NCBI RefSeq assembly: GCF_947496075.1
Contig: NZ_CANMBJ010000004.1
Location: forward strand, 310,001-374,000
Direction of reading: 5' to 3'
Origin: an uncultured Tateyamaria sp.
GTDB taxonomy: Bacteria > Pseudomonadota > Alphaproteobacteria > Rhodobacterales > Rhodobacteraceae
DNA length: 64,000 nucleotides
The position numbers were made by a program, and so were the translations under genes. This document shows, piece after piece, positions 30,291 to 55,850 of the stretch. The stretch's first letter is position 1, and each line of letters starts with the position of its first letter. The notes beneath the pieces are model-generated. The model had not been told where the DNA came from and ran no database searches. It saw only the letters and a program-made list of their open reading frames with translations.

Positions 30291-30317
30291 GTAGGGCGGA
30301 CGACACGTCCGCCTTAC
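30291..30317. repeat. Palindromic GTAGGGCG...CGCCTTAC element (copy a)
   Basis: An 8-bp stem GGCGGACG/CGTCCGCC with loop ACA, flanked by GTAG and TTAC. It lies just after the map stop; its left TAG is in the map reading frame. It is a member of the family described in the findings. Confidence 0.8.
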
Positions 30318-30383
30318 GAGTGGTGTAAGGGGCAGCTTGCTGCACTTGAGCGGCATCTGCATAGCGCGATGATAGCCACATCT

Positions 30384-30430
30384 GTAAGGCGCACCTCCGG
30401 TGCGCCGGGCGGAGGTCACCTCCGCCTTAC
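30384..30430. repeat. Paired palindromic element (copies b1 and b2) at the rsmD stop
   Basis: Two hairpins side by side: GGCGCACC/GGTGCGCC with loop TCC, then GGCGGAGG/CCTCCGCC with loop TCA. The outer ends GTAAGGCG and CGCCTTAC are themselves inverted. The right end, read on the minus strand, supplies the TAA stop of rsmD. Confidence 0.85.
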
Positions 30431-30972
30431 TGCCTCTCAAGCAGCGTGACGTGTGTGCCCCCGAACCGCCGTTGGTCCAGCAGCACGTAACCCGCAGGCG
30501 CGGTCATCGGGGCGCTTTCTTCCCACACGATCACGGCCTCGGGCGCGCACCAGTCCCGAACCGCGTTCAACGCCTTCTCTCCCATCCCCTTGCCATATGG
30601 TGGGTCGAGGAAGACCAGATCAAACGGAGCGCCAGCCCAGGCCATGGGCCGCGTTGCATCGCCGCGCATCAGCTGCGCTTGGTGACCCGCCTCCAGCTTC
30701 TGGATGTTCTGCGTGATCAGCTTTTGTCCGACCCGGCCGTTTTCCACGAACACCGCTGCCTTCGCCCCGCGTGACAATGCTTCGAACCCCAGGGCGCCCG
30801 TCCCGGCAAATAGGTCCAGCACATGCGCCCCTTCGATCACCCCGCGATGGGTCAGCATGGAAAACAGGCTTTCGCGCACACGGTCGGGCGTTGGACGCAG
30901 ATGCGCGCCCGGATCGCCCTTGCCCACGGTGGCCAAAGGCACACCGCGCCACCGGCCCGCGATGATCCTCAC
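30427..30972 (-). CDS. rsmD: 16S rRNA (guanine966-N2)-methyltransferase RsmD
   Basis: A 181-residue SAM-dependent methyltransferase. SAM site DLFAGTGALGFEA lies at residues 53-65 and catalytic DPPYG at 123-127, preceded by LRPTPDRVRESLFSML, which is typical of RsmD. It methylates G966 of 16S rRNA in the small subunit. The start overlaps the FAD reductase stop by four bases. Its stop codon is built from the palindromic repeat end. Confidence 0.94.
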   Translation of the reverse strand: MRIIAGRWRGVPLATVGKGDPGAHLRPTPDRVRESLFSMLTHRGVIEGAHVLDLFAGTGALGFEALSRGAKAAVFVENGRVGQKLITQNIQKLEAGHQAQLMRGDATRPMAWAGAPFDLVFLDPPYGKGMGEKALNAVRDWCAPEAVIVWEESAPMTAPAGYVLLDQRRFGGTHVTLLERQ

Positions 30973-32171
30973 TTCAAGAGCGCCTTGAGATCACCATCGG
31001 GGTCTGCGACCACCGCCGGGTCCGCCGACTTACCAGCCTCGATCAGTCGTTTGCCGATCATGTAGGCGCGCGGGTCATTCGCCGCATCCACGGCCAGCAG
31101 CCTGTCACCCGCGTAGTACCAGAAGGACTTTGCTGCTCCTCCATCCCGCGTTACGACCCGGTCGTAACCGGTGTTCAGCCCGGCGATCTGCAGCTTCACG
31201 TCGTACTGATCGGACCAGAACCAGGGGCGTGCGACATAGTCCTTACCTGCCCCCATGATGTTTTCCGCCACGCATTCCGCCTGATCAATGGCGTTTGGCA
31301 CGCTTTCCAGCCGGATGCGGTCACCGCGATAGGGGAAGGATGCGCAATCGCCCGCGGCCCAGACATGGGGCGCAGAGGTGCGGCCCTGGGCATCCGTGGC
31401 GATGCCATTGTCTATGGCAATCCCGGCCGCCTCCGCCAGGTCGCTGCCCGGGGAAATACCAACCCCCACGATCACAAGGTCCACATCCAGCGTGGTTCCG
31501 TCCGTCAACTCTGCCCCCGACACTGTCCCGTCGCCGATCAGCCGTGTCAGGCCGACGCCTTCGCGCAGGTCAACGCCGTGGCCCTTGTGCAGATCGCGGA
31601 AGTAGTCGCTGGTCTGGGGCGCCGCGACCCGTTGTAGGATGCGGTCCGCCATTTCGACCAGAACCACGTTCAGGCCAAGCTTGCAGCACACCGCTGCCGC
31701 CTCAAGCCCGATATAGCCGCCGCCGACGATCAATGCCGTCTTGCCCGCCTTGCACCACGGCGCCATCGTGTCCACGTCTGCAAGATCACGGACAGTAAAC
31801 ACACCTTCCAGATCACCACCGATGGACGCGGGCAGCCGCCGCGGAGCAGACCCGGTGGTCAGCACAAGGTCGGTATAATCCAACACCTCATCCCCAACCG
31901 TAACGGTCCGGGCTGCAGTATCGATCGCCGTCACGGTCTGCCCGGTGCGCAGATCGATTTTGTTGTCGGTGTAAAAGCTGTCGGGCCGCAGGAACATCCG
32001 CTCAAGCGGCATTTCACCCAGCAGGTAGGCCTTGGACAGGGGGGGGCGTTGATAGGGCAGCGCAGGTTCGGACCCGATCAGCGTCACGCGCCCTTCGAAG
32101 CCGCCATTGCGCAGTTTGGCGACGCAAGACGACCCTGCCTGCCCTGCTCCGATCACCACAACATGGCTCAT
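30969..32171 (-). CDS. FAD/NAD(P)-dependent ferredoxin (rubredoxin/putidaredoxin-type) reductase
   Basis: A 400-residue flavoprotein. It has two Rossmann sites: VIGAGQAGSSCVAKL at the N-terminus for FAD and LIVGGGYIGLEAAAV (about 145-160) for NAD(P)H. The later GDCASFP motif binds FAD, and the C-terminal reductase domain follows (FWSDQYDVKLQIAG). This set is typical of reductases feeding electrons to small ferredoxins for P450s or dioxygenases; no such partner is nearby. The ATG at 32171 has AAAGGTGA upstream and is preferred to the GTG nine bases earlier. Confidence 0.88.
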   Translation of the reverse strand: MSHVVVIGAGQAGSSCVAKLRNGGFEGRVTLIGSEPALPYQRPPLSKAYLLGEMPLERMFLRPDSFYTDNKIDLRTGQTVTAIDTAARTVTVGDEVLDYTDLVLTTGSAPRRLPASIGGDLEGVFTVRDLADVDTMAPWCKAGKTALIVGGGYIGLEAAAVCCKLGLNVVLVEMADRILQRVAAPQTSDYFRDLHKGHGVDLREGVGLTRLIGDGTVSGAELTDGTTLDVDLVIVGVGISPGSDLAEAAGIAIDNGIATDAQGRTSAPHVWAAGDCASFPYRGDRIRLESVPNAIDQAECVAENIMGAGKDYVARPWFWSDQYDVKLQIAGLNTGYDRVVTRDGGAAKSFWYYAGDRLLAVDAANDPRAYMIGKRLIEAGKSADPAVVADPDGDLKALLK

Positions 32172-32257
32172 GTGATTCACCTTTACCCTCGCCCTTTGCC
32201 GTAGCGCAGCCTATATCGCAGAAGAAGACAGACGCAATTCCAAGAAAGGCGCAAACA

Positions 32258-32746
32258 ATGGCAATTTCTGTAGGCGACACGCTGCCCGACGCGACACTTG
32301 TTCACCTGGGCGATGAAGGCCCCGAACAGGTGCAATTGAGCGAGAAGACCAAGGGCCGCAAGGTTGTGATCTTTGCCCTGCCCGGTGCCTATACCGGCAC
32401 GTGCAGCACCGCCCACGTGCCCAGCTTTATCCGGACCAAGGACGGTTTCGCCAGCAAGGGTGTGGACGAGGTGATCTGTGTCTCTGTCAACGACCCCTTC
32501 GTCATGGGCGCCTGGGGCGAGGCGACAGGTGCCACCAAGGCAGGCATAACAATGCTGGGCGATCCCGATGCGACTTTTACCAAGGCCATGGGCCGTGCAT
32601 TCACAGCCCCGCCCGTGGGTCTTTACGATCGCTCAACCCGCTACGCGATGGTTGTCGAAGACGGCAAAGTGACCGTGCTGCAGGAAGAAGAGAATCCCGG
32701 CGTCTGCGACGTATCAGGCGGTGAGGCTCTGCTGGAAGCGATCTGA
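32258..32746 (+). CDS. Peroxiredoxin, Prx5 type
   Basis: A 162-residue peroxiredoxin. The peroxidatic Cys49 lies in FALPGAYTGTCSTAHVP, the Prx5/hybrid signature, with the following WGEATGA and GDPDATFTKAMG segments. It reduces H2O2 and alkyl peroxides, probably with glutaredoxin/glutathione or thioredoxin. It is a single gene with its own terminator 25 bases after the stop, divergent from the FAD reductase gene. Confidence 0.92.
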   Translation: MAISVGDTLPDATLVHLGDEGPEQVQLSEKTKGRKVVIFALPGAYTGTCSTAHVPSFIRTKDGFASKGVDEVICVSVNDPFVMGAWGEATGATKAGITMLGDPDATFTKAMGRAFTAPPVGLYDRSTRYAMVVEDGKVTVLQEEENPGVCDVSGGEALLEAI

Positions 32747-32770
32747 GCACGCGCCAAATCAACCTGACGC

Positions 32771-32800
32771 AAAAGGCCCCCGATCCGGGGGCCTTTTTTT
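32771..32800 (+). terminator. Rho-independent terminator after the peroxiredoxin gene
   Basis: AAAGGCCCCCG and CGGGGGCCTTT form a perfect 11-bp stem with loop ATC, followed by a run of T. As the minus-strand pterin dehydratase gene converges here, it may serve both directions. Confidence 0.92.
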
Positions 32801-32828
32801 CATTTGGATCACATTGGCCTCGCCCGCG

Positions 32829-33125
32829 CTACTCGACCAAGCTGTCCAGTTTGCGCGCCAGTTTCACGTCAAGCGGGCTCAGCCCACCCACGTCATGCGT
32901 GGTCAGGGTTACCTCGACCCGCTTGTAGACATTGAACCACTCCGGGTGGTGATCCCACTTTTCCGCCCAGATGGCCGCGCGGGTCATCCATCCAAACGCA
33001 TCCACAAAATCAGCGAATTCAAAGGTCTTGTGGATCGCATCGCGCCCGTCGGTTACGGCCCATCCGGTGGCAAGCAACGGGTCCAGCAGCGTGCTCCGCG
33101 TCTCATCGCTCAGCTTTTCCATCAT
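32829..33125 (-). CDS. phhB: 4a-hydroxytetrahydrobiopterin dehydratase (PCD)
   Basis: A 98-residue protein with the full PCD pattern: [21 protein letters not shown], then [18 protein letters not shown] containing the paired active-site His, and [13 protein letters not shown]. It dehydrates the carbinolamine made by aromatic amino acid hydroxylases; a hydroxylase is not in the window. The start overlaps the FemAB-like gene stop by four bases, so it belongs to the minus-strand unit beginning with ridA. Confidence 0.93.
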
Positions 33126-34309
33126 TCCTGTTCCTCGATCTGGACCTTTTTGAAAGGTCCGTAGTCCGTGAGGATTTCGATCTCCTCTTCCACCGCCTCA
33201 CGTTCGGCTTCGAGGTAGCGGGCCACCGCGTCGGCAAAGCCCGGATCACCCAACCAGTGCAGGCTGTGGGTCTGCGTGGGCAAGTAGCCCCGTGCCAGCT
33301 TGTGTTCGCCCTGTGCCCCTGCCTCGACACGGGCCAGCCCGTGTTGGATGGCGATGTCGATGGCCTGATAGTAGCACAGCTCAAAATGTAAGCAGGGGTG
33401 ATGCTCGATACATCCCCAATAGCGGCCAAAGAGCGTTTCCGCGCCTAAAAAATTGAGTGCGCCCGCAACATAGCGCCCGTCACGTTCGGCCAGCACCAGC
33501 GCCATGTCATCGGCCAACGTCTCCTGCGCGATGTCAAAGAAGCGGCGGGTCAGGTAAGGCGTGCCCCACTTGCGCGCGCCGGTGTCCTGGTAGAAGTGCC
33601 AGAATGCATCCCAGTGTTCAGGCCGCAGGTCATCACCCGTCAGCACGTGGATGGTGCCGCCGAACTCCTGCGCCCGCTGCCGCTCCTTGCGGATGTTCTT
33701 GCGCTTGCGACTGGAGAGCGAGGCGAGGAAATCGTCGAACGTGTCGTAGCCGTCGTTCAGCCAGTGGAACTGCTGCGTGGTCCGGGCCATCAGACCAAGG
33801 TCAGCCCCGAAATCCCGCTCAGTTTCCGTGCAAAAGGTCACGTGCAGCGAGCTGAGATTGTTGTTTTCCCCCAGTTGCACCGCGCCCGAGATTAGCCCGC
33901 GCATCCCCAGTTCGGGAAAGTCCGGGTGGGTCAGGAACCTCCGACCCGTTGCGGGCGTGTGGGGGACCGCGATTTGCAGCTTGGGATAGTACCGCCCGCC
34001 GGCCCGTTCGAACGCGTGCGCCCAATTGTGGTCAAAGATGTATTCGCCCTGGCTGTGGCTTTTGGCGTACATCGGTGCAAAGCCGATGGTCTGCCCAGCC
34101 GCCATTGCCTGCAGGTATTGCGGTTGCCAGCCTGTGCCGGGACCGACCGAATTGCTGTCCTCCAGCGCCTTGAGAAAGCGGTACGTGGTGAAAGGGTCGT
34201 TTGGCCTGCCACCGTTTGCAGCCTCGGGACAAGCGCAGGCATCCCATTCCGTTTCCGAGACGGCGGACAGGCTGGGCAACACACGGATTTCAATCTCTTG
34301 TTCGGACAC
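33122..34309 (-). CDS. FemAB/GNAT-like N-acyltransferase (DUF482 type)
   Basis: A 395-residue protein of the peptidoglycan-bridge-like acyltransferase class known as DUF482. Markers are [32 protein letters not shown] (phosphate-binding helix), the [17 protein letters not shown] block and [22 protein letters not shown] near the end. The natural acceptor is unknown. A GTG at 34309 with AGGAAAG upstream is the likely start; the frame stays open 69 bases further to a TTG that overlaps the GDPD gene. Confidence 0.8.
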
Positions 34310-34374
34310 GTGAGTCTTTCCTGGGGCCTTCCCCTGCACTTCGACCACTGAATGTGTGCCGCGCGCGGCGCGGT

Positions 34375-35142
34375 TCAACCAGGATGCGGGGCGAGGTAGC
34401 CTTCAAAGGTCACATTTTGTGCGACCTCGCGCGCTTGTGCTTCTTCCGCGAGCGACCGGATAGTCCAACAGAGGATATTGGCACCGGCATCTTTCAAGTC
34501 TGCGACACGTTGGCGGGCTAGGTCTGCCGCCTCGTGGCTGATGAAGGACGCGCCGACCCCGTCGAAATCCGGGATGCCGCGCAGGTGATCGCGTGTCGCT
34601 GCGTTCAAAGGCCAGTCATCGGCGGCGTAGGCACTGGTGACCAATCCGCGCGGGATGTCCGGGCACAGCGCGGCCATGCGCGACACGCTGTGCGGGTTGA
34701 AGGACATGAGGGCGACGGGTCCATCATAGCCATTCAATGCGGCAGCCGTTGCCTGCTCCAGCCGGCCAATGTCGTCGCCCATTGCGCCGTCCTGATCCTT
34801 GATCTCGATCAGCAACGGGACTTGGCCTGCCACGATCTCAAGCACTTCGGGCAGCGTCGGGATGCCTTCATCACCGCCTTTCAGAGGTGTCTGCCGAAGT
34901 GTCCCCGCGGGGACAACGCGCACAGGCCCGGTCCCTTCGGCCAAACGGTCGAGCGCATAGTCATGAAACACCATGGCCTGATTGTCGGCGCTGAGTTGCA
35001 CGTCGATCTCGATCCCGTAGCCATGGTCGATGGCCGCGCGAATGGCGGCGCGGCTGTTTTCAGGGCGGCCATCTGTGACATCGTGCAGGGCGCGGTGCGC
35101 CAGTGGCGCATCTAAGAATGCATCGGGCAAACGAGGGATCAT
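34375..35142 (-). CDS. Glycerophosphodiester phosphodiesterase
   Basis: A 255-residue GDPD with its catalytic pattern: AHRALHD (His), then GRPENSRAAIRAAIDHGYGIEIDVQ (Glu and Asp metal ligands) and MVFHDYALDRL (second His). LLIEIKD supplies a further Glu. It splits glycerophosphodiesters to glycerol-3-phosphate and an alcohol. No signal peptide is visible, so it is cytoplasmic. The start overlaps the ridA stop by four bases. Confidence 0.92.
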   Translation of the reverse strand: MIPRLPDAFLDAPLAHRALHDVTDGRPENSRAAIRAAIDHGYGIEIDVQLSADNQAMVFHDYALDRLAEGTGPVRVVPAGTLRQTPLKGGDEGIPTLPEVLEIVAGQVPLLIEIKDQDGAMGDDIGRLEQATAAALNGYDGPVALMSFNPHSVSRMAALCPDIPRGLVTSAYAADDWPLNAATRDHLRGIPDFDGVGASFISHEAADLARQRVADLKDAGANILCWTIRSLAEEAQAREVAQNVTFEGYLAPHPG

Positions 35143-35597
35143 TTGATCTGAAAGATACCTTCGATCTCGACCGCCACGCCCAGCGGGAGAGCCGCGGCAG
35201 AGACAGCAGAACGGCTGTGGCGACCTGCATCACCCAGCGCTTCGACCAGGAAGTCCGACGCACCGTTGATGACTTTAGGCTGGTCCGTGAAATCGGCTGT
35301 CGAATTGACGAAGCCGGTCAACTTGATCACGCGCACAAGCCGGTCGATATCGCCACCGCATGCCGCCTTGACCTGTGCCAGGAGGCTGATGGCGCAGGTT
35401 TTTGCTGCTGCCGCCCCGGCCTCGACGTCCATGTCGGCGCCGAGCTTGCCCAGGATCAGGCCATCCAGTCCGTTCGAGATCTGACCAGAGACATAGACGA
35501 TGTCGCCCACCTGCACGAACGGCACGTAATTGGCAGCGGGTGCGGGGGCGTCTGGTAGGGTCACGCCCAGCTCGGACAAGCGGGATTCGATGGACAT
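35139..35597 (-). CDS. RidA-family (YjgF/YER057c) protein
   Basis: A 152-residue RidA homologue of the longer subgroup. NYVPFVQVGDIVYVSGQI, then the LIRVIKLTGFVNS and RSAVSAAALPLGVAVEIEGIF blocks are characteristic. The canonical Arg of deaminating RidA would lie in the RSAV segment. The family hydrolyses reactive enamine/imine intermediates. It is the first gene of the unit ridA, GDPD, FemAB-like, PCD. Confidence 0.9.
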   Translation of the reverse strand: MSIESRLSELGVTLPDAPAPAANYVPFVQVGDIVYVSGQISNGLDGLILGKLGADMDVEAGAAAAKTCAISLLAQVKAACGGDIDRLVRVIKLTGFVNSTADFTDQPKVINGASDFLVEALGDAGRHSRSAVSAAALPLGVAVEIEGIFQIK

Positions 35598-35664
35598 GGG
35601 ATGTCTCCTTTGATCGGTTTGCGCGGACGCTAGACCGCCCGCGCTGCCGTGAAAAGGCCCGATG

Positions 35665-36966
35665 TCAGGATTCGCGGAACGCGCGGTTGAAGTAGTCCGC
35701 CATCGGCTTGATCAGGTAAGCCAGCGGCGACCGGTCGGCCGTGCGAATAAACGCCTCGACCGGCATGCCGGGAACCAGCACCTGTCCCTCGGCCAGCTTG
35801 TCGATTTCTCCGGGGCTCAGCACAATTTCGGCCCGGTAGTAGCTGGCGCCGACATTCTCGTCCTCGAACGCATCCGCAGATACCAGCGCAACCTCACCCA
35901 CCAGTTCAGGCGTGGTGCGTTGGTCGAGCGCTGAGAACCGCAGGTTCACCGACTGCCCCGTCACGATCTGGTCGATGTGAATCGGGTCCACCCGTGCAGC
36001 GATGACAAGTGGGCGGTCTTGTGGGATCAGGAACAGGACCGGATCGGCGGCCCGCACGACCGAGCGTGGTGTCTGCACCCGCATGTTGTAGACAATGCCG
36101 GATACGGGCGCGCGGATCTCCATCCGTTCGATATCGGTCAGCAAGGCCAGCCGCTGTTCGATCAACTCCAATTCGCGCGTGCGCAGGTCGCGCAATTGGG
36201 TGATGGCCTCTTCGCGCCGCCCGGACGTCAGGCGCAGCACTTCGATTTCGATCTCGGTGATACGTTGTTCGGATTGGGCTTTGGACGCCGCAAGCTCACC
36301 CAATTGCCCTTCAAGCGAGGCCTGTTGTCGTTGCAAAGCCAGAACGCCAGAGGCTTGTGCTAGCCCCCGCTCCAGCAGGCTTTGCTGCGCCTCGAGTTCC
36401 TGTTCAATCAAGTCAAGTTGCCGGGCCAGCGACACCTCTTGTGCCTCGATCCCCTTGATCTGATTGCGGGTTTGCGCCGCGCGTTCTGCGAGCTGTTCGG
36501 ATTGGTTATCAATGGACTCGCGCCGGGCGTAGAAGAGGTTTTCCTGCCCAGTCACCAATTCTTGTACGTCTGGCCAAGTGGCCGCGACCTCCAACAACTT
36601 GGACTCGAACGTGATCTCGTCCTTGTCGTCCCGTTCGGCTTCAAGCCGCCCGCGGCGGGCCATGAATTCGTACAGCTGCCCTTCGACGATGGCCTGGCTG
36701 GAGCGCATCTGTTTGACGTCGAGCTGAACCAACAGGTCACCCGCTTCGACGCTGTCGCCCTCTTTCACTTCGATCTTGGACACGATGCCGCCGGTCGAAT
36801 GCTGTATAACCTGCCTGTTCTGGTCGACTTCGATCCGGCCTGACGCAATCACAGCCCCTGCGATTTCCGTCAGGGTTGCCCACGCAACCAGACCGCCCAA
36901 AAGACCAAACAGACCGAAGAAGCCAATGACCAGCGGCTTGGTTGCAGACCAGCGTTTGTTGCTCAT
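35665..36966 (-). CDS. Type I secretion periplasmic adaptor (HlyD family)
   Basis: A 433-residue membrane fusion protein. One N-terminal membrane helix (VIGFFGLFGLLGGLVAWATLT) leads to a split lipoyl domain (GRIEVDQNRQVIQHSTGGIV) and a long coiled coil (about 90-280, rich in LEAQ/ERAAQ repeats). After that come the beta-barrel domain (IRAPVSGIVYNMRVQT) and the C-terminal VLVPGMPVEAFIRT. This layout is that of PrsE/AprE-type adaptors, which join the ABC permease to an outer-membrane TolC, not present here. It overlaps the ABC gene by four bases. Confidence 0.92.
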   Translation of the reverse strand: MSNKRWSATKPLVIGFFGLFGLLGGLVAWATLTEIAGAVIASGRIEVDQNRQVIQHSTGGIVSKIEVKEGDSVEAGDLLVQLDVKQMRSSQAIVEGQLYEFMARRGRLEAERDDKDEITFESKLLEVAATWPDVQELVTGQENLFYARRESIDNQSEQLAERAAQTRNQIKGIEAQEVSLARQLDLIEQELEAQQSLLERGLAQASGVLALQRQQASLEGQLGELAASKAQSEQRITEIEIEVLRLTSGRREEAITQLRDLRTRELELIEQRLALLTDIERMEIRAPVSGIVYNMRVQTPRSVVRAADPVLFLIPQDRPLVIAARVDPIHIDQIVTGQSVNLRFSALDQRTTPELVGEVALVSADAFEDENVGASYYRAEIVLSPGEIDKLAEGQVLVPGMPVEAFIRTADRSPLAYLIKPMADYFNRAFRES

Positions 36967-38708
36967 GATACCCCTCCTGCGCCCGCGGGCGCGCGCTGGA
37001 TCTGTTCGTGGTTCTTGACCATGGATTTCAACACTTCGTCCTTGGGTCCGAAGGCCGTGCGCACGCCGCCGTCAATGACCAGCAGCAGGTCGCATTCCTG
37101 AATGGCGGCGGGCCTGTGTGCCATGATGATGACGGACCGCCCGTCGGCCTTGGACGTGCGAATGGCCTGGTTCAGCGCCATGGTCCCCTCGTTGTCGAGG
37201 TTCGAGTTGGGTTCATCCAGAACAAGGATCACCGGATCGTCGTATAACGCCCGTGCGAGGCCGATGCGCTGTATCTGCCCGCCCGAAAGCCGCTGTTGGC
37301 CTGCGTCGATCCGTGTATCGTAGCCATCCGGCAGTTCGAGGATCATCTCGTGCGCGTCCGCCTTTTGCGCGGCGGCCACAACTTTTTTATCATCGGGCGA
37401 CGTCGAGAGCCGCGCGATGTTTTCGGCAATCGTGCCGTCAAACAACTGAACCCGCTGCGGCAGGTAGCCGATATGCATGCCCAGAACGTCAGGGGCATAT
37501 TGATCAAGCGCCGCGGCATCCAGACGGATAGACCCGCCTGCGGGGCGCCACACGCCAGTGAGGCAGCGGGCAAGCGTGGACTTGCCTGCCCCTGACGGGC
37601 CGATCACGCCCATGGCGTGCCCCGGCGGTAGATCGAAATTGAGGCCGCGCAGGGCCGCGGACTTTTCGCCGGGTGGCACCACTGTCAGGCTTTTGGCCAC
37701 AAGTCGGGCCTTGGGTTTTGGCAATTCGGTTCGTGTTGGTTCAGGGCCGACTGCCCCCAGCAACTCGGCCAGTGCGCCCCACCCTTTGATCGCGCGTTGC
37801 ACAACGGGCCACTGGGTCAGCATCAATTCGATAGGCGCGAGCGCCCGGCCCAAAAGGATGGAACCCGCAATCATCGCACCGGGCGTCATTTCATTTTGGA
37901 GAACCAGATAAGCCCCCACCCCAAGCATCGCGCTTTGCAAAAACAGACGCAACGTCTTGGTCAACGAGGTAAAGCCCCCTCCGATATCCGTCGCCTTGAT
38001 TTGTTCATCAAGGGCAGCGCCGCGCGCCTTTTGCCACCGGTCAAAGGCCGAGTCGCGCATGCCCATGGCCTGCACCATCTCTGCTTCAATCCGAAGCTGG
38101 TCCGACATCGAAGCCGCCACCTGCCCCGCCTGCCCGGCGCGCAACTGCGGCAGACGCGACAAGAGTTGGTTGGCCAGCGCAATAAGAATCAACACGGCGC
38201 CACCGCCCAGCGCCAAAAACCCCAAGACAGGATGGAAAATAAAAATTGCACCGATGAAAATTGGCGTCCACGGCAAATCAAAAAACGCCATCAACACGGG
38301 CGACGTGATAAATCGCTGAACCCCTTCGAGGTCTGCAAGGCCCGTCTGCGTGCGTAAGTCCGGCGCAACAGCAGATTTGCGGACCACCGCATCGAACACC
38401 CTGCGATCCAGGTCGTTCTGAAAACGTGCCCCCACCCGCGCCATGATCCGACCGCGCGTGAAGTCGAGAATGCCCATCACACCGTACAGAAAGACCACCA
38501 GAAGCGACAAAGCGATCAATGTTTCTTCGCTTCTGCTGCCCAGCACACGATCATAGACCTGCAGCATGTACATTGGTCCGGTCAGCATCAGCAGGTTGGC
38601 AAACAGGCTGAATAGCCCGACAGCCCAATATAGGCCCCTGCTCTTGCGGCGCGCCGCGTACAGCTCTGCCTGTCCTCTTTTCGTCAGTTCACTTTGCATC
38701 GGCACCAT
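36963..38708 (-). CDS. Type I secretion permease/ATPase (PrsD/AprD-like)
   Basis: A 581-residue ABC exporter half. The N-terminal half has about six membrane helices with the LLMLTGPMYMLQVYDRVLGSRS segment typical of PrsD/AprD. The ATPase half has Walker A IGPSGAGKST, signature LSGGQIQRIGLARAL, and Walker B VILVLDEPNSNLD. No peptidase-C39 domain is seen, so substrates would carry C-terminal signals (RTX-type). The substrate gene is not in the window. Confidence 0.93.
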   Translation of the reverse strand: MVPMQSELTKRGQAELYAARRKSRGLYWAVGLFSLFANLLMLTGPMYMLQVYDRVLGSRSEETLIALSLLVVFLYGVMGILDFTRGRIMARVGARFQNDLDRRVFDAVVRKSAVAPDLRTQTGLADLEGVQRFITSPVLMAFFDLPWTPIFIGAIFIFHPVLGFLALGGGAVLILIALANQLLSRLPQLRAGQAGQVAASMSDQLRIEAEMVQAMGMRDSAFDRWQKARGAALDEQIKATDIGGGFTSLTKTLRLFLQSAMLGVGAYLVLQNEMTPGAMIAGSILLGRALAPIELMLTQWPVVQRAIKGWGALAELLGAVGPEPTRTELPKPKARLVAKSLTVVPPGEKSAALRGLNFDLPPGHAMGVIGPSGAGKSTLARCLTGVWRPAGGSIRLDAAALDQYAPDVLGMHIGYLPQRVQLFDGTIAENIARLSTSPDDKKVVAAAQKADAHEMILELPDGYDTRIDAGQQRLSGGQIQRIGLARALYDDPVILVLDEPNSNLDNEGTMALNQAIRTSKADGRSVIIMAHRPAAIQECDLLLVIDGGVRTAFGPKDEVLKSMVKNHEQIQRAPAGAGGVS

Positions 38709-38863
38709 TTCGCTTGTTCACTGCTCGACTTTGTTTTCTTGACACGATGGCGTATTTTGCCTGTCACGCAAGTGCCACATGTACAAGGTTACCCAAGTGG
38801 CGCTATGGGCATTTAGAATAACTGCATTAATTACATGCCAAGAATATCCAACGGAGATTTGCA

Positions 38864-39625: not shown

Positions 39626-39626
39626 T

Positions 39627-40223: not shown

Positions 40224-40250
40224 CAGGCTCCAAGCAGAACAACCAAGTAC

Positions 40251-42579: not shown

Positions 42580-43062
<483 letters not shown>

Positions 43063-46237: not shown

Positions 46238-46284
46238 GGCATTGTCAGATCATGCGCCTTTGTGTTGGCCTGTTTGAACCCACC

Positions 46285-48320: not shown

Positions 48321-48393
48321 GGGTGAGTCCCTCCGGGCGGTCAAAAACGCCTTTGACTAACGCCGGAGGGACCAGATTGGCAAGGCCTGCGCG

Positions 48394-48663: not shown

Positions 48664-48808
48664 GTGTTCCCTTCCCTGCGGGGGTCTTATCCAGGTCCGA
48701 CCCGCACCCCCTTTGCGCACCGGCGGCACGGGGATAGCGCAGTTTCGCTGGACCACATCAGGGGAAAGCACAGCCAGTTTTCCCATGGCTGAACGGAAAC
48801 GTATGGCG

Positions 48809-49285
48809 TTACCCGCGTTCCTTGAGCAGGCGCTGCTTCTGGCGATTCCAGTCGCGCTTGGCCGAAGTGTCGCGCTTGTCGTGCAGCTTCTTGCCCTTGG
48901 CGATGCCGATCTTCAGCTTCGCGCGGCCCTTGTGGTTGAAGTAGAGCACGATGGGCACCAGCGTCATCCCCTTGCGCTGCGTGGCGTTCCAGAGGTTCGA
49001 CAGTTCCTTGCGGCTGACCAGCAGCTTTCGGGGGCGGCGTTCTTCGTGCTTGAACGATTTGGCCTGGTCATAGGGCGCGATGTAGCTGTTGATCAGCCAC
49101 AATTCCCCATTGTCCACATGGGCATAGCTTTCGGCAATGTTGGCACCACCGGCGCGCAAGGACTTGACCTCGGACCCTTCAAGCACGATGCCGCATTCGA
49201 GATCATCCTCGATTGCGTAATCAAAGCGGGCCCGCCGATTTTCGGCGGCCACCTTGTAATTGGGGTCTGATTTACCTTGAGCCAT
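48809..49285 (-). CDS. smpB: SsrA-binding protein SmpB
   Basis: A 158-residue SmpB. The blocks [54 protein letters not shown] and [17 protein letters not shown] are diagnostic. It binds tmRNA and delivers it to stalled ribosomes. The tmRNA gene was looked for alongside and not seen. Confidence 0.97.
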
Positions 49286-49399
49286 GGGCGATGGATGTAG
49301 GGGGTTGGCCGGGTGCAGGCAAGGGCTCTGCAGGAGTTCATGGAATCTTGGGATTTGGGCGAATAAGCTGCGCGGCGGGGAAAGAAACGGAGAATTGGT

Positions 49400-50071
49400 A
49401 TGCGGGTCTGGATGGTGCTGGCGGCATTTGCCGCCCTGTTGGGCTGTGCCGAACCTGTCCCATCCTCAGGTGCGGCCCGGATCATCGCCACGGGTGACAG
49501 TCTGCTGGCATGGAACGCGGCGTCCAACCGATCCGTCGTGTCGGCTTTGGAAAAGCGGTTGAGGGCCACAGTTGTGGATAGGTCCGTCGTTGGCGCACGC
49601 TATCACTATGTACTGCCTATCAGCGGCAGCCTGGGCCTGCGGATCGGCAGCCAATACGCCGTCGGTCGCTGGGATTGGGCGATCATGAATGGCGGCGGCA
49701 ACGATCTGTGGCTGGGCTGCGGGTGCCGCAAATGCGACGCCCAGCTGAACAGGCTGATCAGCGCGGACGGCACGAGCGGCACCGTAGTGGATATGGTGCG
49801 CCGGGCGCGGGCCGATGGCGCGCGGGTTATTTATGTCGGCTACCTGCGGACCCCGGGCCAACCGTCGATGATCGATCACTGCCGCGATATAGGTGATGCC
49901 TATGAGGCGCGGCTGGCACGGATGGCCGAGGGTGACGCAGGCGTTACCTTTGTCTCGATCGCAGATCTGGTGCCGCATGGCGATCTGAGCTTTCACGCAG
50001 CGGACCGCATTCATCCCTCCCCCAAGGGCAGCGCGGCCATCGCGGCCCGGATTGCGGCCGTGATGCGGTAA
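49400..50071 (+). CDS. SGNH/GDSL-family hydrolase, lipoprotein
   Basis: A 223-residue protein with a lipoprotein leader (FAALLGC, Cys16). The SGNH blocks are visible: ATGDSLLAW with the nucleophile Ser34, a Gly before GGGNDLW with its Asn, and [10 protein letters not shown] with the Asp and His of the triad. It should hydrolyse esters at the envelope. Three cysteines (GCGCRKC) cluster after the Asn block, unusual for the family. The stop TAA is formed by the left end of a palindromic repeat. Confidence 0.87.
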
Positions 50072-50090
50072 GGCGCACGTGTCGTGCGCC
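50068..50090. repeat. Palindromic GTAAGGCG element (copy c) at the SGNH hydrolase stop
   Basis: An 8-bp stem GGCGCACG/CGTGCGCC with loop TGT. The GTAA preceding the stem contributes the TAA stop of the SGNH gene. The right flank differs from TTAC. Confidence 0.8.
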
Positions 50091-50122
50091 CGCCCGGGCT
50101 GGGTCAGGGCGGGCGCGATAGA

Positions 50123-51526
50123 TCAGGAAAACACCTGCTTCAGCACGGGAATACGCGACAGGATCAGCCAGTCCAGCAACAGAACGGTCAACAGCGTGAT
50201 CCCGGCCATCGGAAAGGCCAGCGAGATGGCAAGCCCCACAAGCACGGCCCCCTGCCAAAGCGGCATATCGCGTGGCAGCGCGGGCGCGGCCAGTCGCAAC
50301 CCGCCGGGGCGCCGTTTCCACCACATCACCACGCCCGAGACACACAACAGCAGGACGGACAAGCAGATCAGGGTGTTGGCCAGCACGCTCCACAGGCCCA
50401 GCGTGCCCATGTGCAGAGCGATGCCCACGGCCATGGCCTTGCCCGCCAGCGAGTAGTCGGCGAACTGCACATCGGCGAGGATTTTGCCTGTGTACTGGTC
50501 GATATGCGTGGTCCGGTCCGCCATGGGGTTTTCGCTGTCATTGCTCATGCTGTCGCGCGACAGGGTCCAGACACCATCCGCACCGCTTGGCAGGTTCAGC
50601 TGATACCGCGCGTCGAACCCGATCTGGCGGGCCAGCATGTCCACTGTGTCGAGCGTCACGGGCGTCCCTTCGGGCATTCCCGTGATACCGGCCTGGCTGC
50701 CGGAGGCCGGCATGGGCGTCTGCTCCAACGCCCAAGGCACTTCCTTGGGGCCATGGTTCATTGAGGCGTGGATGTCGTCCGACAAGGGCACGTTGTCCCA
50801 TTTCTCGGCTGGGAACTGGCTCCAGGCCTGGACCATCTTTTCGCCCCAGACGCCTGCCCAGGCGAGGCCGGAGATCAGGAAAAACACTAGAAACATCGAG
50901 ATCCAGATGCCGAAAACGCCATGCAGGGATTTCCAGGTGGCCCGTCCGCGCCCGAAGGATGGGACAAGCGCCGCGCGCCAGCCGGCGCCACGGGGCCACC
51001 ACATGTAGAGGCCCGTGGCGATCAGCACCATGCCGAGCGACGCGGCAATCTCGATCATGCGGTCGCCGGTGACGCCCAAAAGCAAAGTGCCATGCACATT
51101 GTCGGCAAAGTCATACCAGCCCGAGCGGCGCGGGAAGGTTTCAAGCACTGCCCCGGTATAGGGGTCGATGGCCACCATGGTGGCTGCGTCTTCGGCGTCC
51201 ACGCGGAAGATGGCGGCGCGGTCGTCACTGCGGGGCGCCACGTATTGGCGTAGCGCGCCGCCGGGTATTGCAGCAACGGCTGCGTCGGCCTGTTGGGAAA
51301 CGGCCAGCGCTGCATCTTGCGGGATCACTGGAATGCGGTCGCCGTCGCGCCCGTCAACAAAGGCGATCCAGAGCATTGCCATGCCGGTGATAGCGAGTAT
51401 CGCAAAGAAGGGAATCACGTAGAGACCGGCATAGAAATGCCAGCGCCATGCTGCGCGATAGAGTTTGGAGGACGCGGTTGCGTCTTGCGCCTGTTCAGGC
51501 GTCTGGGTTGGGTCGAGAGAGACCAT
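50123..51526 (-). CDS. PepSY-associated transmembrane protein
   Basis: A 467-residue protein of the PepSY_TM type: four main membrane helices at about residues 28-52, 155-178, 210-235 and 400-430. A large periplasmic domain lies between, with PYTGAVLETFPRRSGWYDFADNVHGTLLLG, whose HG(T/S)L pattern is typical. Relatives act in iron/siderophore uptake or as reductases. It lies downstream of a small exported DUF2946-like gene on the same strand, 43 bases apart, probably cotranscribed. Confidence 0.88.
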   Translation of the reverse strand: MVSLDPTQTPEQAQDATASSKLYRAAWRWHFYAGLYVIPFFAILAITGMAMLWIAFVDGRDGDRIPVIPQDAALAVSQQADAAVAAIPGGALRQYVAPRSDDRAAIFRVDAEDAATMVAIDPYTGAVLETFPRRSGWYDFADNVHGTLLLGVTGDRMIEIAASLGMVLIATGLYMWWPRGAGWRAALVPSFGRGRATWKSLHGVFGIWISMFLVFFLISGLAWAGVWGEKMVQAWSQFPAEKWDNVPLSDDIHASMNHGPKEVPWALEQTPMPASGSQAGITGMPEGTPVTLDTVDMLARQIGFDARYQLNLPSGADGVWTLSRDSMSNDSENPMADRTTHIDQYTGKILADVQFADYSLAGKAMAVGIALHMGTLGLWSVLANTLICLSVLLLCVSGVVMWWKRRPGGLRLAAPALPRDMPLWQGAVLVGLAISLAFPMAGITLLTVLLLDWLILSRIPVLKQVFS

Positions 51527-51569
51527 TGGAAAAATTCCTCTGTCAGATCAATGTGTTGGATTGGGTCTG

Positions 51570-51959
51570 TCAGAGGTGTGCGGGCGGCCCCCTTGGCCGG
51601 GTGCGGTCGGGGCGCAGCTGCGCAAGCGCTTGCGAGACGCGGGTCAGTTTCGGCGTGAAGGCAGAGATTTGGGCTGCGTGTGCCGGGAAGTCGATGGCGG
51701 GCGCACGGTCAAGCGTCGCTTGCCCGGCCCAGTCGCAGAGCTGGTGCTGTGCCTCGACCGGGTTGCCATCAGCATCAAGCGTGACCGTCGTTGTATCCAG
51801 CCCGGTACAAATTACCATCGTGATTGTCCCCGCCTGCGCCTCGGGCATGGTGCCAGGGGCGATGAGCGAAAACAGCATGAAAAGCAGTGTGATCGCGGCG
51901 CGAAGGCCGACCCGGGCCAGCGAGATCAGGTTGTTGAAAGGGCGCGCGCTCATGCGCAC
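51570..51959 (-). CDS. DUF2946-like small exported protein
   Basis: A 129-residue protein. A hydrophobic segment near the N-terminus (AAITLLFMLFSLIAP) is followed by MVICTGLDTTTVTLDADGNPVEAQ and a Cys-containing CDWAG. The order MVICTG-x-TVTLDADG-C is characteristic of DUF2946, a family often near copper- or iron-related membrane proteins. It precedes the PepSY gene. Function is not established. Confidence 0.65.
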   Translation of the reverse strand: MRMSARPFNNLISLARVGLRAAITLLFMLFSLIAPGTMPEAQAGTITMVICTGLDTTTVTLDADGNPVEAQHQLCDWAGQATLDRAPAIDFPAHAAQISAFTPKLTRVSQALAQLRPDRTRPRGPPAHL

Positions 51960-52056
51960 CGCTTATAGAGCAGTCTGTTCAAAGCCTACACGCAAAACTG
52001 TCGCAGTCATCGACGGCAGTGCTGTCCAGCGCTCAAAACCGGAAATCTACCGCCCG

Positions 52057-52875
52057 TCAGTCGCCAAGCTTCTTGTGCACTTCGTCGAGGTCAATCTCGC
52101 CTATGGGCATCTTGTTGGACGGATCCTCGAAATCGTATTTGAACACTTCGAAATCGCGTTTGTAGATCTCGTAGACCAGATGCATCGACAGATCGTCGAA
52201 GTAATCCTCGACCGGGTGAGCGCGTTTTGGGCCATGCCCTTCGCTTTCGTTGAAGCGGGGGATGTCGGCGATGTTCACGCTGTTGGGCGTGTCGATGGCC
52301 TGCATGACCTCTTCCATGCCCTCGTTGAACTTCTCGGTCCAGATGATCTTGTCATACTTCCCGCCGTTCACGATGAAGGTGCTGACATGGCCCGACATGG
52401 CGGACCAGTGAATGTCAGGCTCCATCGGGCGGCGCCAGCGGATCGTGTCCCGGGCAAAGAGCAGAAAACGGCGGAACGACTGGATCTGGTCAAACTCCTG
52501 CTTGCCATCATCGCCCCCGACCTCGATCCCGTATTTCTGGATCAGGAGCGGGACGAGGTTGCCGCGATAGCGTTTGCCGTTGCGCTGGATGCCGCAGATC
52601 TTGTCAAAGAAGGACGACAGGATGCGGGTGTAGGGGTTGCGTACGCAGGTGAAGGCGTAGGAACCATGGGATTTCACGTTGTCGGTGATGATCGGCTGGC
52701 TCGCCTCAAGCGCCCATTTGTGCATGCCGCCTTGGGCATCGTGAATGTCGCCATCAAAGAATTCGCCGTGATCCGAGTAGAACATAATCTGCCCGATGGT
52801 CGAGCAGGCGCATTTCGGCACCACGCGATACACAACACTTTCGCTTTCCGTCATCCAGGTCCCTGGGAACCCCAT
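52057..52875 (-). CDS. Sulfotransferase-family 2 protein
   Basis: A 272-residue protein. The PAPS 5'-phosphosulfate loop is VPKCACSTIGQ (PK-x3-ST), and the 3'-phosphate segment is FTCVRNPYTRILSSFFDKI with the conserved R-N-P-Y and Ser. Both are signatures of carbohydrate sulfotransferases (Sulfotransfer_2). It has no signal peptide, so it would work in the cytoplasm. It is divergent from a glycosyltransferase gene, with 140 A+T-rich bases between. An alternative start is the ATG at 52854. Confidence 0.88.
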   Translation of the reverse strand: MGFPGTWMTESESVVYRVVPKCACSTIGQIMFYSDHGEFFDGDIHDAQGGMHKWALEASQPIITDNVKSHGSYAFTCVRNPYTRILSSFFDKICGIQRNGKRYRGNLVPLLIQKYGIEVGGDDGKQEFDQIQSFRRFLLFARDTIRWRRPMEPDIHWSAMSGHVSTFIVNGGKYDKIIWTEKFNEGMEEVMQAIDTPNSVNIADIPRFNESEGHGPKRAHPVEDYFDDLSMHLVYEIYKRDFEVFKYDFEDPSNKMPIGEIDLDEVHKKLGD

Positions 52876-53015
52876 ACCACTTGCCCTTTTTACCTGCTGC
52901 GATCCTTGCCGCCCGCGTTGTGGCGCAAAAAAGCAAATAAATCCTGTTTATTCAATCTCTCCTTAGCTTTATCACCGTAAACAATCGCACGCTAAGAGGC
53001 AGTAAAGTTTCCTGA

Positions 53016-54593
53016 ATGGCAAAAATCGCCTACATCCTGCTGTGTCACAAGGACCCGGAGGCCATCATCAAGCAGGCCGAACGCCTGACGGCTGCGGGCG
53101 ACTATATGGCGATCCACTTTGATGCCCGCGCGAGCGGTGTGGCGTTTGCCAAGATTCGCGCGGCCCTCAAGGACAATCCCAACGTGGCCTTTGCCAACCG
53201 CCGAATCAAATGCGGGTGGGGAGAATGGAGCCTTGTCCAAGCCACGCTTTATGCCGTTGAAAGCGCTGTTGAGGCGTTTCCCCGCGCGACCCATTTCTAC
53301 ATGCTGTCCGGCGATTGCATGGCGATCAAGTCCGCCCAGTACACCCACCGCTTCCTTGATGACAACGACGCCGATTTTATCGAGAGCTTCGACTATTTCG
53401 AGAGCGACTGGATCAAGACCGGGATGAAGGAAGAGCGGTTGATCTACCGCCACTTCTTTAACGAGCGCACGCAGAAATGGCGGTTCTATACCAGCTACCA
53501 TTTACAGCAACGCTTTGGGATCAAACGTGAAATTCCGGCCGACATACAGGTACAGATCGGCAGCCAGTGGTGGTGTCTGCGGCGTCGGACTATCGAATGG
53601 GTCCTGGACTTCGCCCGCCAACGCAAGGACGTGATGCGGTTCTTCCGGACCACGTGGATCCCGGACGAGACGTTCTTTCAGACCATCGTGCGCCATGTGG
53701 TGCCGGAGGACGAGATTCGCACGCGGACGCTGACCTTCCTGATGTTCACGGATTATGGCATGCCGGTGACATTCTATGACGATCACTATGACCTGCTGCT
53801 GAGCCAGGATTTTCTGTTTGCCCGCAAGATCAGCCCGGAAGCGCGGGATCTGAAACGCCGCCTTGGCCTGCTGTACGCGGCGGAGAATGTGCAGTTCCAG
53901 ATTTCGAACGAAGGGGCGAGCCTGTTCAAGTTCCTGACCGGACGGGGCCGGATCGGGCGCCGTTTTGCGACCCGGTTCTGGGAAACCGAAAGCACCTTGG
54001 GGCGCAATCGCGAGCTGCTGATCATCGTCTGCAAGAAGTGGCACGTCGCCAAGAGGCTGCTCGAACGCATCCGGGTGACAACCAACGTTCCTGCGATCGA
54101 GTATCTATTCAACGAAGAGCATACGCCCCTGCCCGATCTTGGTGGCATCCAGACGACCTTGGAAAAGCGCACGCGCCACAGGCGTGCGTTGATGCGGATG
54201 CTGTTTGACTATTTTGACACTGATCGCCTGATTGTATGCATGGATCCGGGCAACCTGGACCTGTTGCAGGACTTTGCGGGCGATCGGTCAATCACGCGGA
54301 TGCTGGAAGTTCAGTGCGCTTTTTCCGATGACTACCTGATTGGGCATGCCATGCGTGTGGGGCTTGCCGGAGAACAGACAAGCACGGAAACCCTGGAACG
54401 ATTGTTGCCCACGATCCGCAACGATATGACGTTCGAGTCTGATCGCATCCGCGATGCAAATTTCGAACACTTGGATCGGATCCAGGAAATTGCGGATCTG
54501 GATGACAACGCGTCTGCACTGTCTCACTTTTTGAGCGTCCCGCCTGAGAAGGCGCGCGAGATCGCGTCTGTCGACTACCTGTTTTCGGACTAG
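53016..54593 (+). CDS. Core-2/I-branching-type glycosyltransferase (DUF5928-like C-terminus)
   Basis: A 525-residue protein. The N-terminal domain (about 1-270) follows the Core-2/I-branching GT14 type: AYILLCHKDPEAIIKQAERL, MAIHFDAR, FYMLSGDCMAIKS and GSQWWCLRRRTIEWVLDF, then the catalytic-type WIPDETFFQT. The C-terminal half (about 300-525) is an additional domain like those listed as DUF5928 in Rhodobacterales. It could add a sugar branch to an exopolysaccharide or glycan that the divergent sulfotransferase then modifies. Confidence 0.85.
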   Translation: MAKIAYILLCHKDPEAIIKQAERLTAAGDYMAIHFDARASGVAFAKIRAALKDNPNVAFANRRIKCGWGEWSLVQATLYAVESAVEAFPRATHFYMLSGDCMAIKSAQYTHRFLDDNDADFIESFDYFESDWIKTGMKEERLIYRHFFNERTQKWRFYTSYHLQQRFGIKREIPADIQVQIGSQWWCLRRRTIEWVLDFARQRKDVMRFFRTTWIPDETFFQTIVRHVVPEDEIRTRTLTFLMFTDYGMPVTFYDDHYDLLLSQDFLFARKISPEARDLKRRLGLLYAAENVQFQISNEGASLFKFLTGRGRIGRRFATRFWETESTLGRNRELLIIVCKKWHVAKRLLERIRVTTNVPAIEYLFNEEHTPLPDLGGIQTTLEKRTRHRRALMRMLFDYFDTDRLIVCMDPGNLDLLQDFAGDRSITRMLEVQCAFSDDYLIGHAMRVGLAGEQTSTETLERLLPTIRNDMTFESDRIRDANFEHLDRIQEIADLDDNASALSHFLSVPPEKAREIASVDYLFSD

Positions 54594-54644
54594 TTTGCGG
54601 CTTTGCGGTCGCACTGGCCGGGCCGCTTGCCTATAGACGCTGTC

Positions 54645-55763
54645 ATGTCCACGCAAACCACAGCCCCGATCTTTGCCATCACCTTGCCCGGGATGGAGGA
54701 TACGCTTGCTGACGAAGCGCGTGCGCATGGCTTTGATGTGCAAGGCGTGACGCCGGGCGGCGTTCATATCGGTGGCGGGTGGCCCGAGATTTGGCGCGCC
54801 AATCTTGAGCTGCGCGGTGCAACGCGGGTCTTGTGGCGCATGGGGTCCTTCATGGCGTTCCATCTGGCCCAGCTGGACAAGCGCGCCCGCAAGTTTCCAT
54901 GGGCCGAGGTGTTGCGCCCGGATGTGCCTGTGCGGGTTGAGGTTGCGACCTCGCGCAAATCCAAGATTTATCATGCCGGTGCTGCGACCAAGCGAATTGA
55001 AACAGCTTTGGTTGAAAGCGCGGGCATGACCGTGGCAAGCGACGCGCCCATCACCCTGAAGATACGCATTGACGACAATCGCGTAACGATCAGTGTGGAT
55101 ACGTCTGGCGAGCCTTTGCACAAACGCGGCCACAAGGAAGCGGTGGGCAAAGCCCCCATGCGCGAGACGCTGGCTGCGCTGTTTCTGCGCCAATGCGGCT
55201 ATGACGGGACGCAGCCGGTTTTTGACCCGATGTGCGGATCGGGCACTTTTGTCATCGAAGCCGCAGAGATCGCTGCCGGGTTGCAGGCCGGACGGGCGCG
55301 GAGCTTTGCCTTTGAACATCTTGTTGGCTTTGACGCAGGCGTCGTGTCGGACGTGCGCACGTTTGAGCGGCGGGGCGCACCACAGGTGCGCCTTACCGGG
55401 TCGGACCGGGATCAGGGTGTGATCGCGATGGCGCAGGCCAATGCCGAACGGGCCGGTGTTGCGGACCTTGTGCAATTTGAGACAGGCAGTGCAGGTGACA
55501 TATCCCCGCCCGATGGGCCGCCCGGACTCGGCATCGTGAACCCGCCCTACGGTGCGCGGATCGGCAACAAAAAGGCGCTTTACCCGGTCTATGGCCGGTT
55601 GGGACAGGTGCTGGCCGAACGGTTTTCGGGCTGGCGTGTGGGCATTGTGACCAGCGAGGCATCATTGGCGAAAGCAACCGGTTTGCCGTTTGAACCCGAA
55701 GGACCAAGCATCGCCCATGGCGGGTTGCGGGTGAAGCTGTGGCGCACCGGACCTTTGCCGTAA
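54645..55763 (+). CDS. THUMP-domain RNA methyltransferase (RlmL/YcbY-like)
   Basis: A 372-residue protein. An N-terminal THUMP RNA-binding domain (about 10-170, FAITLPGMEDTLADEA) precedes a Rossmann methyltransferase with DPMCGSGTFVIEAAEIA (SAM site) and NPPYGARIGNK (catalytic NPPY). This is the architecture of the 23S rRNA m2G2445 methyltransferase domain, without the second domain of E. coli RlmL. The ATG at 54645 was chosen, since the longer frame reaches back to the preceding stop. Its stop TAA is part of a palindromic repeat. Confidence 0.9.
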   Translation: MSTQTTAPIFAITLPGMEDTLADEARAHGFDVQGVTPGGVHIGGGWPEIWRANLELRGATRVLWRMGSFMAFHLAQLDKRARKFPWAEVLRPDVPVRVEVATSRKSKIYHAGAATKRIETALVESAGMTVASDAPITLKIRIDDNRVTISVDTSGEPLHKRGHKEAVGKAPMRETLAALFLRQCGYDGTQPVFDPMCGSGTFVIEAAEIAAGLQAGRARSFAFEHLVGFDAGVVSDVRTFERRGAPQVRLTGSDRDQGVIAMAQANAERAGVADLVQFETGSAGDISPPDGPPGLGIVNPPYGARIGNKKALYPVYGRLGQVLAERFSGWRVGIVTSEASLAKATGLPFEPEGPSIAHGGLRVKLWRTGPLP

Positions 55764-55810
55764 GGCGCAGGTATCCTGCGCCGGGCGTGGCGGATCGAGA
55801 TCCACCTTAC
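55760..55810. repeat. Paired palindromic element (copies d1a and d1b) at the methyltransferase stop
   Basis: First hairpin GGCGCAGG/CCTGCGCC with loop TAT, then a degenerate second one ending GATCCACCTTAC. Outer ends are GTAAGG and CCTTAC. The left TAA is the stop of the methyltransferase gene. Confidence 0.8.
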
Positions 55811-55824
55811 GGGGCATTTCACCT

Positions 55825-55850
55825 GTAAGGCGGAGGTGTCCTCCGCCCTA
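55825..55850. repeat. Palindromic element (copy d2) at the DUF1523 stop
   Basis: GGCGGAGG/CCTCCGCC with loop TGT; left flank GTAA, right flank CTA. On the minus strand the right end reads TAGGGCGG, whose TAG is the stop codon of the DUF1523 gene. Confidence 0.82.

Follow-up and report, generated by a model that had tools for sequence, protein, structure and literature searches.

GTAA-tagged repetitive extragenic palindromes at gene 3' ends in Tateyamaria, and the RAYT protein without catalytic residues that accompanies them

Hairpins and gene ends in the Tateyamaria window

The window analysed here is a stretch of 64,000 nucleotides from an uncultured Tateyamaria sp. of the Rhodobacteraceae (contig NZ_CANMBJ010000004.1, positions 310,001 to 374,000), in which five loci between positions 30291 and 55850 carry short hairpins at or close to gene stop codons. 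These hairpins are REP elements (repetitive extragenic palindromes) tagged with GTAA and not with GTAG, and this family, together with the REP-associated tyrosine transposase (RAYT) found with it, is the subject of this work.

At the first locus a palindromic REP without strand (30291-30317; GTAG-GGCGGACG-ACA-CGTCCGCC-TTAC) stands behind the M24 peptidase gene (map), whose stop TAA (30286-30288) lies 2 nt ahead of it. A pair follows at 30384-30430, with its first member on the plus strand (30384-30406; GTAA-GGCGCACC-TCC-GGTGCGCC) and its second on the minus strand (30408-30430; GTAA-GGCGGAGG-TGA-CCTCCGCC), and the TAA in the tag of the latter (30429-30427) is the stop codon of the rsmD-family methyltransferase gene (PF03602; 30427-30972, minus strand). 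In the same way, the GDSL/SGNH hydrolase gene (49400-50071, plus strand) ends in the tag (TAA, 50069-50071) of a lone plus-strand REP (50068-50090; GTAA-GGCGCACG-TGT-CGTGCGCC), and the RlmKL-type methyltransferase gene (54645-55763, plus strand) ends in the tag (TAA, 55761-55763) of a further plus-strand REP (55760-55782; GTAA-GGCGCAGG-TAT-CCTGCGCC). The latter is the first member of a pair (55760-55810) completed on the minus strand by a GTAA-tagged hairpin of a 7-bp GGYGGAT type (55789-55810). The last element, a lone REP on the plus strand (55825-55847; GTAA-GGCGGAGG-TGT-CCTCCGCC), is followed by the DUF1523 gene on the minus strand (55848-56495), whose stop TAG (55850-55848) is the triplet directly against the REP stem.

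A first-pass annotation of the window had described these five loci as copies of one form, GTAA...TTAC, with 8-bp stems, and had noted that element ends supply stop codons. Perfect 8-bp stems are indeed present at all five, and the four stops that it named (TAA for rsmD, the SGNH hydrolase and the methyltransferase, TAG for DUF1523) are correct. The proposed form has to be revised: the full GTAR...TTAC palindrome is found only at 30291-30317, whereas 30384-30430 and 55760-55810 are head-to-head pairs in which the final TTAC is the tag of a second hairpin and not part of the same element, the elements at 50068 and 55825 stand alone, without a TTAC, and the second hairpin of the 55760-55810 pair, being of the 7-bp type, departs from the 8-bp consensus. 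The list was also incomplete, since a further consensus copy lies on the minus strand within the RlmKL-type methyltransferase gene (55374-55396). This REP-like copy fits the REP consensus perfectly and shows the far-side pattern CCGC-N3-TCAAA inside coding sequence, and L123-L126 and L133 have paired versions of it in the corresponding position; its origin by insertion was rejected, because 20 aligned orthologues show no length difference there. The methyltransferase of the window is 97% identical to that of one uncultured Tateyamaria and 74-92% identical to those of twelve further Tateyamaria records. At the same methyltransferase stop, two other Tateyamaria (L132:9110 and L135:9089) carry a different stem type, GTAG-GGTGCGCA and GTAG-GATGGGCA respectively, so that stems of unrelated type are found at one and the same orthologous gene end.

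Register with stop codons and retention in related genomes

The genome to which the window belongs (4.94 Mb in 11 contigs) was searched with a covariance model built from 20 seeds, as the first-pass annotation had proposed. Scoring covered the top 150 of some 3,700-3,800 first-look candidates (3794 for the count at E ≤ 10), and we found at least 116 matches at E ≤ 10 and at least 74 at E ≤ 0.2, counts that are lower bounds at rough E-values. When the window was shuffled by codon blocks and any stem sequence was accepted, 8 hairpins were observed against 0-5 in 20 shuffles, a result that is weak alone. In the stretches around the model matches, a scan for paired stems that start with GGYG behind a GTAR tag gave 121 heads (111 GTAA and 10 GTAG) on 113 hairpin bodies. 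The element consists of the tag, a stem of 7-8 bp and a loop of mostly 3-4 nt, and occurs singly or head-to-head; some copies also show CCGC-N3-TCA on the far side, where TCA is a TGA stop on the opposite strand. According to gene context, 61 bodies are convergent, 42 unidirectional, 3 divergent and 7 intragenic, a convergent share that is not directly comparable with the whole genome because the stretches were picked for holding elements.

The hairpins stand at gene 3' ends, either with the TAA of the tag in register with the stop codon or with the stem mostly 7 nt past the stop of an opposite gene. The TAA or TAG of the tag is the stop of a gene on the same strand (offset 0) in 19 of the 121 heads. 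Offsets 1-5, 14-29 and -60 to -1 are empty, and 9 heads fall at 6-13; the letters of the tag forbid offsets 1 and 2, but 3-5 would be allowed. On the other side, the stop of an opposite gene lies exactly 7 nt from the stem (tail-7) in 19 cases, and at 0 (tail-0) for 7 heads, which share 6 bodies; in two further cases (-1 and -28) it falls within the element. Counting stop overlap against chance, as had also been suggested, we ran 2000 shuffles in which 106 of the 113 bodies each stayed inside the intergenic gap where it lies: 17 bodies were observed at head offset 0, where the shuffles gave a mean of 2.3 and a maximum of 8, and 19 at tail-7, where they gave 1.5 and 6. The placement is therefore far from random relative to stop codons, which supports the earlier idea of a repeat that is used as, or targets, gene 3' ends. 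It should be noted that frame-blind insertion at gene ends would give about two read-ins for each tag stop, barring selection against extensions. The register is also seen in a second genus, g122, where the GTAA tag is the gene stop for 6 of the 16 distinct elements read; in five g122 genomes the palindrome GTAAGGTGGATCNNGATCCACC has 16-32 forward matches and zero control matches (at most 2 mismatches).

Many of the hairpins are retained at the same offset across related species, and their stems often still pair. We traced the gene 3' ends that carry elements to their counterparts in the L133, L126 and L123 genomes, which gave 113 comparisons (gene ends by genomes) that are not all independent, since two gene ends can share one hairpin. 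The distinct gene ends number 42, of which 35 were in the search query and four more were matched via other loci; sites 17, 43 and 44 are without orthologue rows in this set. In 110 of the 113 comparisons a stop occupies the same codon column whether or not the element is present; the protein is thus neither lengthened nor shortened, and the element keeps register with a gene end already in place. For this reason, a REP that makes a new stop by truncating the gene was rejected. A paired hairpin at the identical offset was found in 76 of the 113 comparisons (36/48 for head sites, 10/18 for tail-0 and 30/47 for tail-7). Seven head-site orthologues keep the stop column and have no paired element; five of these have a GTAR stop, with hairpin remnants persisting in some of them, and two a CTGA stop. 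As a baseline for the idea of a pre-existing GTAA target, GTAA or GTAG stops occur in 38 of 319 non-REP genes.

Compensatory change in the stems, also claimed by the first-pass annotation, is seen between paralogues, which were preselected for pairing, and at 7 orthologous sites that were not. In this second survey the hairpin at the orthologous position was taken whatever its pairing, and over 72 hairpin-by-genome comparisons 508 stem pairs are unchanged, 13 are changed on both sides and still paired, and 14 are changed on one side and still pairing. The 13 double changes fall at those 7 sites and are confined to stem pairs 5, 7 and 8. An example is L072:10181 against the L133 genome, with gene ends that are 98% identical and a stem pair in which both bases are exchanged.

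The RAYT that accompanies the GTAA hairpins

A REP-associated transposase, whose presence the first-pass annotation had asked about, exists in this genome: a search with NF047646 found two RAYTs, L010 and L011, and the possibility of a REP family lacking a RAYT was dropped, since these are the proteins that the Pfam model Y1_Tnp (PF01797) missed when its search of the same genome gave no RAYT. A survey by PF01797 alone would thus miss both. The gene of L010 ends in a REP tag, and its 3' end carries four REPs, one of them with an imperfect stem. The second, L011 (C6:477932-478192), matches the first 88 of the 146 model positions with its HUH motif intact and lies amid GTAG and GTAA hairpins; it is truncated and looks like the remnant of a separate REP-RAYT pair.

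Across the genus, NF047646 matches were found in all 20 genomes, 19 of them above the model cut-off, the match in G006 being weak and with an internal stop; a third match in G005 and a weak one in G013 stand outside the RAYTs read. Residues were assigned by alignment to E. coli TnpAREP (4er8), the number and role of N119 being taken from the accessible text of PMC6006769. The genus RAYTs fall into two groups. Those of the first are catalytically intact (HUH and Tyr) and stand beside mostly GTAG hairpins. In the second the first His of HUH is V or T, the Tyr is M or L, and the Asn is replaced by Ala; a RAYT of this inactive group was read in 16 of the 20 genomes, and all of these copies are without the catalytic residues. 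The proteins still belong to the family, as NF047646 matches 15 of the 15 members of the inactive-protein alignment (A2) and among PDB sequences 4er8 alone is matched at E ≤ 0.01.

Wider searches gave matches in 44 of 120 genomes at the family level and in 168 of 390 at the order level, and the best-scoring loci were read; since the order-level loci L330-L352 are the best matches to the inactive-group alignment, they are no random sample of RAYTs. In the resulting tree the inactive proteins form a clade of 41 sequences from 40 distinct loci in ten genera of the family, with a support of 0.925. No member has an intact active site: the catalytic Tyr is replaced by M, L, F or V and the metal-binding Asn by Ala in 41 of 41 sequences, and the first HUH His is replaced in 38. 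Both His are kept in the remaining L296, L337 and L341, in which the Tyr is F or L and GTAA hairpins lie nearby; these three may reveal the order in which activity was lost. At the class level 35 of 385 genomes were matched, and the four loci read outside the family are three intact RAYTs and the broken fragment L386, which is the newcomer when a tree with five added loci gives the clade 42 members at a support of 0.84. The fragments L011, L098 and L122 are excluded from the trees, and L113, L119, L311 and L319 have no RAYT frame.

The RAYT accompanying GTAA hairpins in the Rhodobacteraceae has lost its catalytic residues, yet it is conserved. The inactive genes are open and under purifying selection: of the 66 pairs that 12 genus members form, 27 have dN/dS of 0.08-0.34 and the rest lie above the pS limit of 0.62, and in many pairs synonymous sites are near saturation. 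Conservation extends in part to gene order, within Tateyamaria and in up to three other genera. The upstream neighbour of L010, which by its look we take to be a class-I glutamine amidotransferase, was matched at 15 of 15 other genus loci tested and at g137 and g174, and the downstream neighbour, presumably a short-chain dehydrogenase judging by its look, at 13 of 15 genus loci and at g137, g174 and g140. No match to either came from the four intact-RAYT loci that served as contrast. This pattern shows vertical inheritance for part of the inactive clade only.

The tag type goes with the state of the enzyme. We counted hairpins with perfect stems of at least 7 bp within 600 nt of the RAYT gene, at loci chosen by protein match and not by tag (L331, a duplicate of L294, was counted once, and L317 was tallied as other and not as inactive). 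At the 40 loci of the inactive clade this gave 47 GTAA-only bodies, no GTAG-only body and 2 bodies with both tags, and 13 of the 40 RAYT genes themselves end in GTAA; the 28 catalytically intact loci have 1 GTAA-only and 72 GTAG-only bodies and 1 with both. Six other loci, with single defects and outside the clade, have 12 GTAG-only bodies and none of the other two kinds. Genome-wide counts of GTAA-model matches (E ≤ 0.2) are 0, 2 and 0 in G006, G013 and G015, where no inactive RAYT was read, and 1-90 in the remaining genus genomes.

Interpretation and comparison with known REP systems

From these observations we lean towards a REP-RAYT pair that stopped moving and whose hairpins were kept at gene 3' ends. 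The GTAA hairpins are a sister type of the GTAG REPs. They would once have been dispersed by a HUH/Y1 RAYT enzyme, and would have been kept because they are useful right behind the stop codon; their most likely role would be that of a barrier at the RNA 3' end of one or both convergent transcripts, and the protein of the inactive clade may still bind them without cutting. It is a more tentative proposal, plausible but short of probable, that the pair has been domesticated in the Rhodobacteraceae as a fixed gene-end system, in which Tyr, Asn and usually an HUH His were lost and the transposase turned into a hairpin-binding protein, the tag passed from GTAG to GTAA, with TAA as the stop it carries, and the hairpins stayed in register with stop codons; there the bound, non-cutting protein would mark or shield the 3' end of one convergent transcript or of both.

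Several observations weigh against a pair kept in place for its use. Tail-0 placement is not significant (6 bodies observed, against a mean of 2.4 and a maximum of 7 in the shuffles), and the gene calls come from a simple, purpose-made and unbenchmarked caller that was first run on the window. In the related genomes 26 of the 113 comparisons have no paired element and 11 have one at a different offset; in the 72 pairing comparisons, from which 27 rows less than 60% identical were excluded, hairpin decay has left 23 stem pairs broken or mismatched. Moreover, 10 of the 13 double changes are swaps between C-G and G-C, for which replacement by another REP copy fits as well as stepwise compensation. 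On the side of the protein, no such hairpin, or a tie, was recorded at 12 of the 40 inactive loci (and at 3 of the 28 intact ones); G009, G010 and G017 have an inactive RAYT and only 1, 1 and 2 GTAA-model matches; and the neighbours of L010 were not found at the g122, g143, g198, g50, L296 and L320 loci tested. Finally, the link between tag and inactivity may be a single evolutionary event, since the inactive loci form one clade.

Much of this could also be explained, though we find it rather doubtful, by ordinary selfish REPs that have no host function and persist where their insertion harms least, that is at convergent gene ends, with the tag a preferred target or a chance stop and the stem changes due to replacement by other copies. 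The absent and degenerate copies in relatives fit such an origin, as do the compensated changes, which fall only at pairs 5, 7 and 8, among those that vary between paralogues, the GTAR stops at five of the seven element-less head-site orthologues, and the GTAG stems of different type at the methyltransferase stop of other Tateyamaria. Harmless insertion would however allow any small distance from the stop, whereas the head offsets pile up at 0 and then leave 3-5 and 14-29 empty; the stems hold to the family consensus at orthologous sites where several flanks, judged by eye, are no longer alike; and the partner RAYT lacks its catalytic residues in every genus copy of the inactive group read. 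A translational role, in which the hairpin behind the stop would slow termination and tune the upstream gene, appears unlikely. Liang, Rudd and Deutscher reportedly described in 2015 a translation-level effect of E. coli REPs lying within about 15 nt of stops, and in 58 of the 113 bodies a stop ends within 0-10 nt of one side or both, but the difference in preferred spacing between the sides (0 and 7 nt) speaks against a single tuned distance. Least of all do we expect bidirectional intrinsic transcription terminators formed in situ, with no mobile-element origin: G+C-rich hairpins directly after stops, the 61 bodies between convergent genes, RNA fold energies of -18.9 to -31.9 kcal/mol at the five window loci and a T-run behind the stem in a few copies elsewhere (L055, L074) would suit them, yet the hallmark of a T-run right after a G+C-rich hairpin fails at all five window elements (no run of at least 4 T on either side, by eye), one fold among the five does not outperform its own shuffles (z -0.96), and the fixed tag, the family stem, the head-to-head pairs and the clustering at RAYT genes are REP features.

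The function of RAYTs is called unknown or uncharacterized in the accessible parts of PMC8049555 and PMC6006769, and what makes it hard to explain why bacteria keep REPs and RAYTs is telling slow mobility apart from benefit to the host. If the favoured reading is true, a conserved, catalysis-deficient clade under purifying selection, still accompanied at orthologous gene ends by hairpins of its own, would represent benefit without mobility and offer a clean test system. In practice, NF047646 labels as transposases proteins that are without the residues of the known mechanism.

The closest known elements are the GTAG REPs described by Di Nocera et al. 2013 (PMC3733652), whose available text reports an unpaired tetranucleotide tag, a stem of 6-13 bp with alternative complementary residues and a short loop, head-to-head dimers, and locations near the 3' ends of convergent or unidirectional genes, where the tags often supply the stops. 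The window family shares the stem of 6-13 bp, the short loop and the complementary variants (our scan preselects paired stems), the many copies that are mostly intergenic near gene 3' ends, the head-to-head dimers and the linked RAYT gene. The difference lies in the tag, canonically GTAG (GT[AG]G) in those elements, whereas 111 of 121 heads here have GTAA and 10 have GTAG; since the tag of this family ends in A, the stop that it supplies is TAA. No word starting with GTAA, Rhodobacter or Roseo occurs in the text of PMC3733652 that was available, and in the open-licence literature, judged by titles and abstracts and with most subscription papers outside this scope, neither an inactive RAYT clade nor GTAA-tagged REPs were recognised. 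Stop-supplying REP tags are thus already in print for GTAG REPs, while the inactive RAYT partner looks new. The CGTC REPs, with a CGTC tag and A/T at the first two stem positions, are of another kind, as the stems of the window family start with GGYG, which the scan demanded.

The protein belongs to the same sequence family as RAYT/TnpAREP (NF047646; PDB 4er8), whose genes often adjoin their REPs, but the inactive clade is without the catalytic Tyr and the metal-binding Asn and mostly without the first HUH His. In the accessible part of the HuH Y1 survey (PMC6006769), HuH and Y motifs are present in all its sequences, canonical REPs have a GT[AG]G foot and REP types are tied to subclasses; the inactive clade and the GTAA hairpins both fall outside the definitions given there. 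According to the available text of PMC8266576 on the REPtron/TnpAREP system, the protein recognises tag and hairpin, the tag helps to choose the cleavage site, and Y-to-F proteins were used as catalytic controls; in S. maltophilia, tag mutants still form complexes and are poorly cut, worst at the last two positions, a behaviour that fits a state of binding but not cutting. In the system described here, loss of the Tyr and a changed tag are found combined in nature.

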